62,299 nt of DNA from Blastococcus sp. TF02A-35 (GTDB lineage: Bacteria > Actinomycetota > Actinomycetes > Mycobacteriales > Geodermatophilaceae), in the NCBI RefSeq assembly GCF_004571075.1, contig NZ_SPQP01000023.1:1-62299 (forward strand), given 5' to 3'. Shown here one piece after another: positions 4,518-8,888 of the stretch (within the stretch, counting starts at the first letter, position 1; every line of letters begins with the position of its first letter). The notes under the pieces were generated by a model, which worked only from the letters and a program-made list of their open reading frames with translations, had not been told where the DNA came from and searched no databases. The position numbers were made by a program, and so were the translations under genes.

Positions 4518-5009
4518 TCAGCGGTAGTTGTCGAACTGCAGGGCGACGTCGAGGTCGGCACCGCGGAGCAGCTGCTGGACCGCCTGGAGGTCGTCGCGCT
4601 TCTTGCCGCTCACCCGCAGCTGGTCGCCCTGGATCTGCGCCTGGACGCCCTTGGGGCCCTCGTCGCGGATGAGCTTGGCGATCTTCTTGGCGACGTCGGA
4701 CTCGATGCCCTGCTTGATCGTGGCGCCGATCTTGTAGCTCTTGCCCGAGGCCTGCGGCTCACCGGCGTCGAGCACCTTGAGCGAGATGCCCCGCTTGATG
4801 AGCTTCTCCTTGAACACCTCGAGCGCGGCCGAGACGCGCTCCTCGGTGTCGGCCTGCAGGGTGACCCCGTCCTCGCCGGCCCAGGCGATGGTGGCGTTGG
4901 TGCCGCGGAAGTCGAACCGCTGCGACAGCTCCTTGCCGGCCTGGTTCAGGGCGTTGTCCACCTCCTGGCGGTCCACCTTGCTCACGACGTCGAACGATGC
5001 GTCGGCCAT
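4518..5009 (-). CDS. YajQ family nucleotide-binding protein (UPF0234/DUF520)
   Basis: 163 residues, the family length, beginning [13 protein letters not shown] and containing RFDFRGTNA and a C-terminal QFDNYR typical of the family. YajQ proteins have two RRM/ferredoxin-like halves. Some proteobacterial members bind cyclic di-GMP; others are nucleic-acid associated. The ATG at 5009 is chosen because AGAGGAAG lies at the right distance before it, although the frame is open further upstream. An EAL-domain protein that would hydrolyse cyclic di-GMP lies 1.3 kb away, so a signalling role is conceivable but unproven. Confidence 0.9.
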
Positions 5010-5278: not shown

Positions 5279-5710
5279 TCAGGGCAGGGTCGGGGCCCGC
5301 GCGCTCGCGACGGCGGTGCGCTCCAGCGGCTCCCCGCCGAGGAAGAGCCAGTCGAAGGCGATCGCGACGTACCGCGTGCAGCGCACGGTGACCTCGGCGC
5401 CGTCGGTCTCCGCCGACCAGCTGTCCAGCTGCACGCCGCCGTCGGCGAGCTGGTCGGCGACGGCGGCCTGGGCGGCGGCCCGGGTGAGCGGCAGCTCGGT
5501 CCCCACCCCGTGGGCGTAGACGGCCGCCTCGTCGGCCTGGTTCGCCGCGGCGAGCGCGGCGCCGTCGCAGACCGACTGGACCTCCTGCTGCTCCAGGAAG
5601 GCGTCGGAGGCGGCGATGCCGCCGAAGCACATCAGCGCGGCGACGAGCCAGCAGACCAGGACGAACGGCAGCGTCGAGCCGCGTTCCGGGTCGTCGGTCG
5701 GCCAGCGCAC
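5279..5710 (-). CDS. Small TadE/TadG-like membrane protein
   Basis: 143 residues from the GTG at 5710. An N-terminal [19 protein letters not shown] segment is a single membrane anchor of the Flp/Tad minor-pilin type (acidic residue, then hydrophobic helix). It is followed by a helix rich in A and Q ([13 protein letters not shown]) that is very typical of TadE/G-like proteins. The remainder is a short beta-rich domain with two Cys. No other tad genes adjoin it. The open frame reaches another GTG at 5749, but TACGCT at 5718-5723 ends exactly seven bases before the 5710 GTG, the geometry of a leaderless start. The function beyond a Tad-like exported protein is unknown. Confidence 0.7.
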
Positions 5711-5717
5711 GCGGGGG

Positions 5718-5723
5718 AGCGTA
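5718..5723 (-). promoter_or_regulatory. -10-like box giving a leaderless start for the TadE-like gene
   Basis: TACGCT on the minus strand, followed by exactly seven bases and then GTG (5710-5708). The same geometry (TAGGGT, seven bases, GTG) occurs before the gene at 37771. No strong -35 is visible. Confidence 0.4.
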
Positions 5724-5738
5724 GGCAGGCCCCTCCGG

Positions 5739-5825
5739 TTATCCACCACCTGTGGACACGATCTGTGGACATTGTGGACGAGCGGTCACCCGGTCCCGTG
5801 ACGTGCGGTCGGCCCCTGTGGACGA
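5739..5825. promoter_or_regulatory. Cluster of five DnaA-box-like 9-mers
   Basis: Five sites each one mismatch from the high-GC DnaA box TTGTCCACA or from TTATCCACA. They are TTATCCACC (5739-5747, plus strand) and, on the minus strand, GTGTCCACA (5751-5759), ATGTCCACA (5764-5772), TCGTCCACA (5773-5781) and TCGTCCACA (5817-5825). They lie directly upstream of the TadE-like gene. No dnaA, dnaN or AT-rich unwinding region is nearby, so this is not an obvious oriC. A DnaA-titrating or DnaA-regulated promoter site would fit. The remaining 5826-6078 stretch shows no gene or clear promoter. Confidence 0.45.
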
Positions 5826-6078
5826 CGGCGGCCGCGGGCGGTGCCGGCGGGCGGTCCTCCAGGCGTCGCGAAACGGCCGCGGACTCACTGTTCGTGCGGC
5901 CCGAGTGGCGGAAGGTCACGACATGACGTAGACGCCCGGCGTGTCGTCACGGACATGCTTGTGGCCGCCGGTCACGGGAAGCATTGTCTCCCGCGCGGTC
6001 CGTATTCGACGACGCTCTGCCCCCGCGCGTGGATGGCTGCCGCAGCCAGCCTTTCTTTCGTGCCCAGAGGGAGTCGCC

Positions 6079-6162
6079 ATGAACACCATGCAGCGTGAGG
6101 GTCAGTCGGGTCGCGGGTTCCGGTGGACGCGTGGCTTCAGGTGGACCCGCCAGGCGGGCTGA
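6079..6162 (+). CDS. 27-residue small ORF with tandem GFRWTR repeat
   Basis: ATG at 6079 follows a strong ribosome binding site (AGAGGGAG, five-base gap). The peptide has six Arg and one acidic residue, so it is strongly basic, and ends GFRWTRGFRWTRQAG. The two GFRWTR hexapeptides are encoded by 18-nt units differing at four third or synonymous positions and at no amino acid, which suggests selection on the peptide. A stable hairpin (6191-6220) follows, then the EAL-domain gene 183 bases downstream. I do not recognise a family. It could be a regulatory leader peptide (Trp/Arg-rich), a cationic secreted or modified peptide precursor, or a small regulatory protein. Confidence 0.55.
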   Translation: MNTMQREGQSGRGFRWTRGFRWTRQAG

Positions 6163-6190
6163 CCAGCCCGGTCCTGCGGTTCACCCGTGC

Positions 6191-6220
6191 GGGGCAGTCG
6201 TTCTGCGGAACGGCTGCCCC
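6191..6220 (+). terminator. Hairpin after the small ORF (terminator or attenuator)
   Basis: 12-bp stem GGGGCAGTCGTT / AACGGCTGCCCC (one U-G pair) with a six-base loop, 28 bases after the small ORF stop and 125 bases before the EAL gene. There is no U-tract. It could end the small transcript or control read-through into the EAL gene. Confidence 0.5.
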
Positions 6221-6344
6221 GACTCATGTCCGGCCTCCGAGGTGCCGAGGATGCTTCTGATCGGATCCATCCGCGGGTCCGAACGCGTCGCGCCGGCTGG
6301 TTTCGCTGCTAGCCTTCGCCCGCCCGACCACCCGGGGAGTCCAT

Positions 6345-8888
6345 GTGCAGGCCGCTGAGCAGCAGGTCCGCGAGCCAGGAGACGGTCGCGCACCGCGCAG
6401 CCCCTGGCTCGTGGCGCTGCTCGGGCTCGCCGTCGGCGTGCCGGTCGGGGTGGCGGTCTTCCTCGCCGGGCCCTGGCGGGTGGACGTGCCGGTGCTCGTC
6501 GCCGTCTTCGGCATCGCGGTGGTCGCCGAGCGCCTCACCGTGCACGTCGAGTTCCGGCGGCAGAGCTTCCACAGCTCCGCGAGCGAGCTGGCGTTCGTGC
6601 TCGCCCTGCTGGAGGTCGGCGGCGCCTGGACGGCCGTGACCCGCGCGGTCGCGGTCGCGCTGGTCCTCACGGCGCAGCGGCTCCCGGCGCCGAAGGTCGT
6701 CTTCAACGCGGCCGTGGCCGTCCTCGAGGCCGGCGTCGCCGTGGCCGTCCTCGGGCTGCTGCCCACCGGTGGGATCACCGACCCGGTGACGTGGCTGTCC
6801 TGCCTGGCCGCCGTGTTCGCGGCCAACGTCGTCTCCGCCGGCCTCGTCGGCGGCGCCATCACCATGGCGCAGGGCTACCCGGGACGCGCCCTGTGGGCCG
6901 GGATCCTGGTGCCCCTGGTCGTGGTCGGGCCGGTGGCCGCGCTGATCGGCCTGGCCATCCTGCTGCTGCTGCACACCACCGTCTGGGCGTGGCTGATCAT
7001 GACGCCGCTCGCCGCGGCGGTCGTCCTCCTCCACCGCCGGTTCGCGGGGGTCACGCGGGAGAGCCAGTCGCTCGAGCAGGTCTACGCGTTCGCGCGGCGG
7101 GTCGAGGAGGTGCAGCCCGACGAGGCCGGCACCCACCAGATCGTCCAGGCCGTGCGCGAGCTGCTCAACGCCGAGCGCGTGGCCCTCTGGCTGCCGCCCT
7201 ACCTGGACGAGGGCCCGCGGCTCGTCGTCGCCACGGAGGACGGGGCCGACTGGTACGACGGCCCCGGGGACCCCGACGACCTGCTCCGCCGGCGGGCCGT
7301 GGCCTCCACCGACGGCGTCGTCCACGTGACGGCGGCCCGCGCCGGTGCGGCCGAGCGCGCCGCCCTCGCCCGACGCGGGGTCTCCGACCTGCTGGGTGCG
7401 CCGGTCACGACGGCGGCCGGGGAGCCCGGCTACCTCGAGGTGTGCGACCGGCGCAGCGACCTGGTCTCCTTCAGCAGCAGCGAGCGCGGCGCCCTGGACT
7501 CGATGCTCACCCACGTCAACGCCGCGATCCGCCAGCAGCAGCTGCTGACCCGCATCCGGTACGACGCCGACCACGACCGGCTGACCGGCCTGCCCAACCG
7601 GCAGCGGCTCTCCGCCGAGATCGACCAGCTGCTGGCCGGTGGCGCGGCGGGTGCCCGGGCCGGGCTGATCCTGGCCTCCCTCGGCACCTACGCCGACGTG
7701 ACCGACACCCTCGGCCACGCGGCGAGCGACGAGCTCCTGCTGGTCATCGCCGGGCTGCTGCGCGAGCACGCGCCGCCCACCGCCCTGCTGGCCCGCATGG
7801 AGCGCGAGCAGTTCGCCGTCCTCCTCCCGGGGCTCTCGCTGGCGGCCACCGAGCAGGCCGCGCGGCGGCTGCGCGAGGCCGCCGCGACGCGGGTGCGCGT
7901 CGCCGGGCTCGACCTCGAGGTCTCGCTGACCATCGGCGTCGTCGCGGCGCCGGTCCACGGCACGGACTCCGGCATCCTCATGCAGCGGGCCGACGTCGCC
8001 CTGCTCGCCGCCGAGTCCTCCGGCGGGGTGGCCAGCTACCACCCCGTCCTGGACCAGCAGAGCCTCCGGCGGCTGCAGCTGGCCTCCGAGCTGGAGCAGG
8101 CGATGGCCGACGGGCAGATCAGCGTGGTCTTCCAGCCGGTCATCGACGCCCAGACCAACGACATCGTCTCCGTGGAGACGCTCATCCGGTGGGTCCACCC
8201 GCGCTACGGCAACGTCCCGCCGGAGGAGGTCATCGGCCTCGCCGAGCAGATCGGCCGGATCGGCCTGGTGACCGACCACGTCCTCGACCTGGCGCTGGCC
8301 CGGTGCCGCCGCTGGCTGGACCAGGGCATCGCCCTGTCGGTCGCGGTGAACGTGTCGGCGCGCTCCCTGGCCGAGCCTGACCTGGTCGAGCGCATCCGCG
8401 GCGCGCTGCAGCGCCACGAGGTGCCGGGGGAGCTGCTCATCCTCGAGCTCACCGAGAGCAGCGTCGTCGACGACGCCGTGCGGGAGAGCTCGGTGCTGGA
8501 CGACCTGCACGACCTCGGGCTGCGGCTGTCCATGGACGACTTCGGCACCGGCTACTCGTCCCTGTCGCAGCTGCGCCAGCTGCCCATCGACGAGCTGAAG
8601 ATCGACAAGTCCTTCGTGCTGACGATGGCGACCAGCCAGGGGGAGTCCTTCATCGCGCGCTCGATCATCGAGCTGGCCCACAACCTGGGGCTGTGCGTGG
8701 TCGCCGAGGGCGTCGAGGACGAGATGACCCGCAACCAGCTGGCCACGATGGGCTGCGACAAGCTGCAGGGCTTCCTGATCAGCCGCCCGCTGCCCGAGGA
8801 CCGGCTGGAGAGGTGGCTGCTCGCGCGGGCCGGCGTGCGCTCCGCCACGCCGGGCGCCCCGCACCGCCGGCTGTTCGTCCGGACCTGA
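6345..8888 (+). CDS. Membrane GAF/degenerate-GGDEF/EAL protein, probable c-di-GMP phosphodiesterase
   Basis: 847 residues. Residues about 20-230 hold six to seven membrane segments. A GAF-like region follows (about 245-390), then a GGDEF domain (about 405-565) and an EAL domain (about 575-835). The GGDEF signature is replaced by EREQF (about 485-489), so cyclase activity is very unlikely, although DRLTGLPNR is kept. The EAL domain keeps the catalytic set: ETLIR (611-615), NVSARSL, ELTES, DDFGTG (731-736), KIDKSF and AEGVED. It should therefore hydrolyse cyclic di-GMP, perhaps gated by GTP at the dead GGDEF. The GTG at 6345 has GGGGAG six bases before it; an overlapping ATG at 6343 is out of frame. 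Confidence 0.9.
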   Translation: MQAAEQQVREPGDGRAPRSPWLVALLGLAVGVPVGVAVFLAGPWRVDVPVLVAVFGIAVVAERLTVHVEFRRQSFHSSASELAFVLALLEVGGAWTAVTRAVAVALVLTAQRLPAPKVVFNAAVAVLEAGVAVAVLGLLPTGGITDPVTWLSCLAAVFAANVVSAGLVGGAITMAQGYPGRALWAGILVPLVVVGPVAALIGLAILLLLHTTVWAWLIMTPLAAAVVLLHRRFAGVTRESQSLEQVYAFARRVEEVQPDEAGTHQIVQAVRELLNAERVALWLPPYLDEGPRLVVATEDGADWYDGPGDPDDLLRRRAVASTDGVVHVTAARAGAAERAALARRGVSDLLGAPVTTAAGEPGYLEVCDRRSDLVSFSSSERGALDSMLTHVNAAIRQQQLLTRIRYDADHDRLTGLPNRQRLSAEIDQLLAGGAAGARAGLILASLGTYADVTDTLGHAASDELLLVIAGLLREHAPPTALLARMEREQFAVLLPGLSLAATEQAARRLREAAATRVRVAGLDLEVSLTIGVVAAPVHGTDSGILMQRADVALLAAESSGGVASYHPVLDQQSLRRLQLASELEQAMADGQISVVFQPVIDAQTNDIVSVETLIRWVHPRYGNVPPEEVIGLAEQIGRIGLVTDHVLDLALARCRRWLDQGIALSVAVNVSARSLAEPDLVERIRGALQRHEVPGELLILELTESSVVDDAVRESSVLDDLHDLGLRLSMDDFGTGYSSLSQLRQLPIDELKIDKSFVLTMATSQGESFIARSIIELAHNLGLCVVAEGVEDEMTRNQLATMGCDKLQGFLISRPLPEDRLERWLLARAGVRSATPGAPHRRLFVRT

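Follow-up and report, generated by a model that had tools for sequence, protein, structure and literature searches.

Co-variation of a tandem-hexapeptide small ORF with the membrane sensor of an adjoining predicted phosphodiesterase suggests an undescribed peptide signal and receptor in Geodermatophilaceae

We analysed a 62,299-nt stretch of DNA (the window) from a Blastococcus genome of 3.93 Mb. The window contains a real 27-aa small ORF (sORF) with two consecutive GFRWTR units, and the gene after it encodes a membrane protein with GAF, GGDEF and EAL domains, here called the receptor (Table 1). The original prediction had claimed a ribosome binding site, two 18-nt units that differ at four codons and encode identical hexapeptides, and the order sORF, hairpin, EAL gene. 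All of these were read in the window, and every one of the four codon differences is synonymous. The window genes upstream encode a DUF520 protein and an M48 peptidase, and those downstream encode a MaoC-like pair, an M1-peptidase-like protein and an aminotransferase. To place the repeat against a background, we counted ORFs of 15–60 aa with a Shine-Dalgarno-like motif in the window and 40 further loci (745,650 bases). An exact tandem hexapeptide was found in 36 of the 1,315 ORFs, 34 of them with W-units fitting the family motif; the 40 loci had been chosen for holding hits, and the informative figure is the background of two other ORFs. Within the window, the sORF is the sole ORF with an exact tandem hexapeptide.

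Table 1. Features of the sORF-receptor locus (window coordinates)
Feature	Position	Strand	Remarks
Conserved leader (promoter/5' UTR region) of sORF	5983..6078	+	Covariance model match 5983-6081, E 3.0e-24
Shine-Dalgarno AGAGGGAG	6066..6073	+	5 nt ahead of ATG; comparable site in aligned homologues
27-aa sORF, putative peptide precursor	6079..6162	+	ATG...TGA = MNTMQREGQSGRGFRWTRGFRWTRQAG
Unit 1, GFRWTR	6115..6132	+	
Unit 2, GFRWTR	6133..6150	+	
GC-rich terminator-like hairpin	about 6191..6220	+	Can form, read from window sequence
Promoter-like element CGCTGCTAGCCT before receptor gene	6304..6315	+	GCTGnTA-type; putative promoter role
Receptor gene, membrane domain-GAF-GGDEF-EAL	6345..8888	+	847 aa; next gene after sORF
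Membrane sensor domain	6387..7049	+	aa 15-235; predicted S-component-like; co-varies with unit
GAF domain	7134..7529	+	Pfam PF01590
GGDEF domain	7566..8024	+	Pfam PF00990; degenerate motif MEREQF
EAL phosphodiesterase domain	8088..8789	+	Pfam PF00563, E 2.2e-66; catalytic motifs kept

A W-repeat ORF behind a common conserved leader was found in 101 of 112 Geodermatophilaceae genomes. The covariance model of the leader was built on a subset of 54 of 60 leaders (another subset, of ORFs, held 26 of 35 entries). It matched 103 of the 112 genomes at E ≤0.1; the E value was below 1e-9 for 101, and the matches in the other two, G068 and G071, were weak. Absence of homologues, or homologues with a broken frame, had been named as the outcome that would speak against the sORF; neither was found in the 101 leader-bearing genomes, and the other 11 of the 112 gave no strong match to the leader model. 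Two helices are possible in the leader, with weak covariation: RNAalifold indicated little, and a hand-set two-helix structure contained one pair with compensatory changes, in eight sequences. Because the covariation is small, we call the leader conserved and not a proven RNA. An Rfam search of positions 5700–6500 returned two miRNA families far under their thresholds, which we attributed to chance.

In three genomes, a second leader copy lies 0.6–2.2 kb upstream of the main leader (L092 in G039, L256 in G044 and L262 in G062). In G039 and G044, the ORFs behind the extra leader are 70 and 77 aa long, contain hydrophobic stretches and lack a W repeat; in G062, no clear ORF follows it. One genome bin (G036) holds two leader-sORF loci, L349 and L315, with the units RTARWG and RTAKWG, and these may represent two strains in the bin. 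In G010, two contigs (L085, L086) stop inside the repeat ORF, apparently at an assembly break.

Protein and DNA searches on the correct strand revealed tandem units in many genomes, for example GFKWTR, GVKWGR, GWRWNR and GHKWSR. After reading the ORF behind every strong leader, we widened the unit definition to the consensus R-x-x-[K/R, rarely S or M]-W-[T/S/G/N/A]. The first units alone are of 67 different kinds in 102 W-repeat ORFs. At least two canonical units occur in 93 of the 102, and all units are identical in 90 of these 93, the exceptions being G111, G051 and G036a. The other nine ORFs have one canonical unit, and in seven of the nine a second W copy begins with another residue; in G101, PWKSG stands next to PWKWG, and G065 has a single unit. 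Insertions separate the unit copies in G003 and G081. A scan of named genomes located the sORF in 2 of 115 stretches among the matches listed. Candidates outside the family picked up by DNA pattern (G139, G372, G114) had neither a receptor homologue nor such an sORF and were judged to be chance matches.

Codon differences between neighbouring units were then counted, taking only units that start with R, hold W and lie six residues apart, a rule by which decayed copies are missed. The 185 neighbouring pairs showed 286 synonymous versus 5 nonsynonymous differences (pS 0.369, pN 0.0078, dN/dS 0.015), which strongly supports the protein-level selection on the hexapeptide claimed from the window sequence. 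At the position preceding K/R, neighbouring copies share the residue in 99.5% of cases, whereas different ORFs share it in only 10%. The residue differs from lineage to lineage, and a change is then carried by every copy, indicating that the copies are kept identical at the protein level. Recent duplication is disfavoured as the cause by serine codon pairs such as TCT beside AGT or AGC.

The receptor is the next gene for 101 of the 102 W-repeat ORFs, and the remaining ORF lies at a contig end; the position before the EAL gene, which the original prediction had proposed to check, is thus kept. The distance from the sORF stop to the receptor start is 83–278 nt (median 146). Genes beyond the receptor are likewise in conserved order in the core family of homologues, and upstream order varies more between genera; adjacency to the receptor is therefore not specific in the core family. 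In the homologues, the 90 nt that follow the sORF stop fold more stably than their mononucleotide-shuffled versions (mean z −2.7, with 80 of 101 below −1), and 86 of 101 spacers contain a GCTGnTA-type element at a median of 45 nt before the receptor start. The leader, the post-stop hairpin and a distinct promoter-like element for the receptor are compatible with transcription of the small gene as a unit of its own.

The catalytic residues of the EAL domain are well conserved: ExL and N are present in 97 of 97 receptors, and DDFGTG and VAEGVE in 96 each. The GGDEF motif reads MEGEQF, MEGGQF, MEREQF and similar. Judged from these motifs, the receptor should break c-di-GMP down and should not synthesise it. 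The membrane domain was modelled with a pLDDT of 83. Foldseek gave ECF S-components such as RibU and FolT as the best matches (probability 1.00, TM by target 0.57–0.70, E 0.015 at best) and no match of the membrane domain at E ≤0.001; the membrane part is tentatively predicted to resemble ECF S-components. Partipilo and Slotboom describe receptors in which the S-component fold is linked to GGDEF and EAL domains, and report 5TMR domains connected to GAF, GGDEF and EAL domains (PMC11109136). Our receptor resembles these 5TMR-type receptors in its predicted S-component-like membrane domain with GAF, GGDEF and EAL, but differs in having a candidate peptide partner encoded next door and no match to Pfam 5TMR (PF07694), since EAL, GGDEF and GAF alone were reported for it. 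The GAF-GGDEF-EAL order and the kept EAL residues are shared with membrane GGDEF-EAL c-di-GMP phosphodiesterases in general, from which the receptor is distinguished by a hypervariable sensor that co-varies with the adjoining peptide.

For the co-variation analysis, we used 97 of 104 receptors, setting aside those that belong to the additional leader loci and any protein shorter than 740 aa. Unit distance correlated with membrane-domain distance (r 0.38, 97 pairs). The partial correlation of unit and sensor was 0.31–0.36 given any other domain, and none of 300 permutations, whose model does not include the tree, reached such a value. Given the membrane domain, the partial correlations with the unit were 0.014 for GAF, −0.003 for GGDEF and 0.005 for EAL; GAF and unit gave 0.16–0.21 given GGDEF or EAL. 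We then compared 26 mutual-nearest receptor pairs. The sensor distance was 0.128 for the 8 pairs with the same unit versus 0.423 for the 18 pairs with different units (Mann-Whitney p 0.0005), and the GAF-GGDEF-EAL distance was 0.038 versus 0.043 (p 0.47). In the pair G100/G101, the catalytic side differs by 1.4% and the membrane domain by 48.2%. Unit and sensor thus tend to vary in step, a pattern suggestive of a peptide signal and cognate receptor that have not been described before.

Synonymous divergence in different-unit pairs was 0.43 in the sensor versus 0.19 in GGDEF-EAL, and in same-unit pairs 0.26 versus 0.19. Because synonymous divergence is raised too, block exchange is indicated more than fast protein change alone. 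The divergence forms an island that comprises the spacer (p 6e-5) and the membrane domain (p 2e-4); outside it lie the upstream stretch (p 0.41) and GGDEF-EAL (p 0.98), and the leader is borderline (0.08). In distant pairs (catalytic distance ≥0.16), the same-unit pairs (3 and 2, five in total) were no closer in the sensor than the others. Since peptide and sensor adjoin and the spacer diverges too, linkage in an exchanged block could give the association without binding, and linkage by itself could account for part of the unit-sensor pattern. The matching of unit and sensor is a firmer claim than cell-to-cell signalling.

The receptor family extends beyond the leader-bearing genomes. Among the 11 family genomes that lack a strong leader match, five (G067, G071–G074) have receptors at 44–51% identity; G066, G068, G069, G070 and G094 showed none at E 1e-90, and G035 gave more distant hits only. 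Upstream of the receptors in G067, G072 and other families we found RNGRWG x3, RAGRWG x3, DGNTWT x5, DGGSWT x4, GALWG x2 and DGAGWG x2, and also a secreted-looking peptide with EGVSWN. When genomes sampled from the class were searched with a membrane-part profile, 48 of 296 (G000 included) proved to carry the receptor family. Upstream of receptors found in this way lie secreted-looking peptides (GTRWG x2, GASWN x3), TPGTGWHLI repeats or larger proteins with repeat tails (GSSWR x19, GLRWN x9 and x11, GLTWR x9, GAGWR x22). All five of the larger proteins scanned are S8 subtilases, and two also match the GETHR pentapeptide-repeat model. In these five, found outside the core family, the GxxWx repeats make up the C-terminal end of a subtilase encoded ahead of the receptor, unlike the core-family units, which stand on a free peptide without a protease. 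A hydrophobic N-terminus was present in 7 of 11 outside peptides tested.

We counted upstream ORFs for 36 testable outside receptors, namely those with at least 400 nt of upstream sequence and a sensor that does not start late. An automatic count gave an ORF repeating a W four-mer at least twice for 20 of the 36; two of these (L431, L442) were judged to be chance. For five more, the only find was a small ORF with W as its penultimate residue, and no W-repeat or C-terminal W ORF was found for 11. At least three W copies occurred beside 13 of the 36 receptors versus 9 of 230 control frames, overlapping frames included, and 8 of those 9 frames lie beside such a receptor; two copies occurred in 26 of the 230. 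These counts indicate that W-repeat peptides or repeat-tailed S8 subtilases often, but not always, precede outside receptors.

Several further loci were noted. Large upstream proteins with homogeneous C-terminal GxxWx repeats (GSSWR, GLRWN, GLTWR, GAGWR, GATWS, GSRWT) are found at L428, L429, L433, L434, L439, L440 and L445; five of the seven, those scanned, are S8 subtilases. Long N-terminal extensions of some outside receptors (seven loci) were other-frame readings of the upstream W-repeat genes, and no receptor-subtilase fusion was seen. A secreted-looking peptide with GASLT x18, a unit without W, lies upstream of a receptor-family gene at L444 (G462). The membrane-domain profile also matched a Chloroflexi MAG, outside Actinobacteria (L207, E 1.2e-36), with no W-repeat ORF recognised beside the match.

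The best reading of these data, and one that we consider probable, is a specificity cassette, made up of a polymorphic peptide and its receptor, that acts on c-di-GMP. The sORF would encode a precursor carrying tandem identical copies of a short peptide ligand specific to the species, and the adjoining gene would make its membrane receptor, in which an S-component-like sensor would act through GAF and a degenerate GGDEF on the EAL phosphodiesterase. As in pheromone systems, peptide and sensor would be exchanged or diversified jointly, whereas leader and catalytic part would remain conserved. Arg stands between the units, suggesting that cutting next to Arg may yield hexapeptides; where a unit-bearing subtilase is present, it may do the cutting. 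Binding of the peptide in the S-component-like pocket would set the phosphodiesterase activity, on or off. Expression, hexapeptide processing, export, binding and the direction of regulation are steps that we infer.

A cytoplasmic role was weighed as the main alternative. Here the peptide would be a small-protein partner that binds the membrane domain of the receptor from inside and tunes the phosphodiesterase, with no cell-to-cell signal. The same unit-sensor co-variation fits this reading. In addition, a hydrophobic stretch or signal sequence was found in none of the 102 core-family peptides, whose net charge is +3 to +9; they would have to exit by another route or act inside the cell. No dedicated processing or export gene was recognised among the scanned neighbours, and M48 and M1-type peptidases are near. 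The earlier suggestion of a cationic peptide that is secreted or modified, or of a small regulatory one, pointed in the right direction; neither the co-variation of the sensor nor how widely the system occurs could be seen from the window sequence. The pocket of S-components opens outward, which argues against binding from inside, as do the outside relatives with a hydrophobic N-terminus or in the form of S8 subtilase tails. We regard the cytoplasmic partner as unlikely.

It is rather improbable that the sORF, spacer and sensor are simply a recombination hot spot, with co-variation from linkage alone and a separate function of the peptide. The adjacency of the genes, a spacer that diverges as much as the sensor and the distant same-unit pairs are consistent with it; however, a repeat peptide also precedes receptors of only 35–51% identity in other lineages, and sister pairs alter unit and sensor with the leader and catalytic side unchanged. 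Slightly less probable still is a RiPP-like reading, in which the peptide is a multi-core product, modified or antimicrobial, and the receptor serves to sense it or to confer protection from it. Identical cationic Trp units in tandem and the repeat-bearing subtilase elsewhere would suit such a product, but Pfam recognised no typical modifying enzyme in the ten neighbouring window genes (the M48 and M1-type peptidases are near, and an unlinked enzyme is possible), and the positive charge is lost outside the family, as in the acidic DGNTWT repeats. The originally predicted Trp/Arg-sensing leader, by which ribosome-mediated attenuation (Trp or Arg charging) would control the receptor gene, is the least probable and accounts for little of the data: the order of sORF, hairpin and gene and the conserved leader agree with it, but the W codons lie six apart with no run of adjacent codons, the remaining unit residues are also held equal between copies, down to the residue before K/R whose equality tRNA sensing does not need, the relatives look secreted or are subtilase tails and one is a GASLT repeat without W, and a conserved promoter-like element of its own precedes the receptor gene.

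Returning to the specificity cassette, we compared it with Staphylococcus agr and Bacillus ComQXP, which are polymorphic peptide pheromone-receptor cassettes. As in those systems, a small precursor gene lies beside a membrane receptor, and peptide and sensor are variable with a constant output. In contrast to them, several identical units are present, the output is an EAL phosphodiesterase instead of a histidine kinase, and no dedicated export or maturation gene was identified in the core family. The peptide had no match in Pfam or NCBIfam, agr and ComX families included, very short peptides being hard to match. Because no homology of parts was found and no processing gene was identified in the core family, we did not assign the locus to agr or ComQXP. 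No description of the repeat peptides or of this gene pair was found in the open-licence PMC literature, and one may exist elsewhere. We give an even chance to a broader, hitherto undescribed actinobacterial class of peptide signalling, in which tandem-unit precursors would be read by a polymorphic, S-component-like, c-di-GMP-hydrolysing receptor and peptide and sensor would be swapped as a cassette to give 'pherotypes'. The precursors in such a class would be free peptides, secreted peptides or S8 subtilase tails that may cut themselves.

To our knowledge, the ligands of most membrane GGDEF/EAL proteins are unknown. Here, the likely ligand would be encoded next door, and natural unit variants are paired with matching sensor variants, so that specificity is testable by swaps. 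If the reading is true, peptide self-recognition would be tied to c-di-GMP, which is described as controlling Streptomyces development (PMC6205966). In the window, the DUF520 gene (4518–5009, minus strand) lies about 1 kb upstream of the sORF, and such a gene is a frequent neighbour in the core family. We take the window gene to be of the YajQ type, and YajQ is a c-di-GMP binder.
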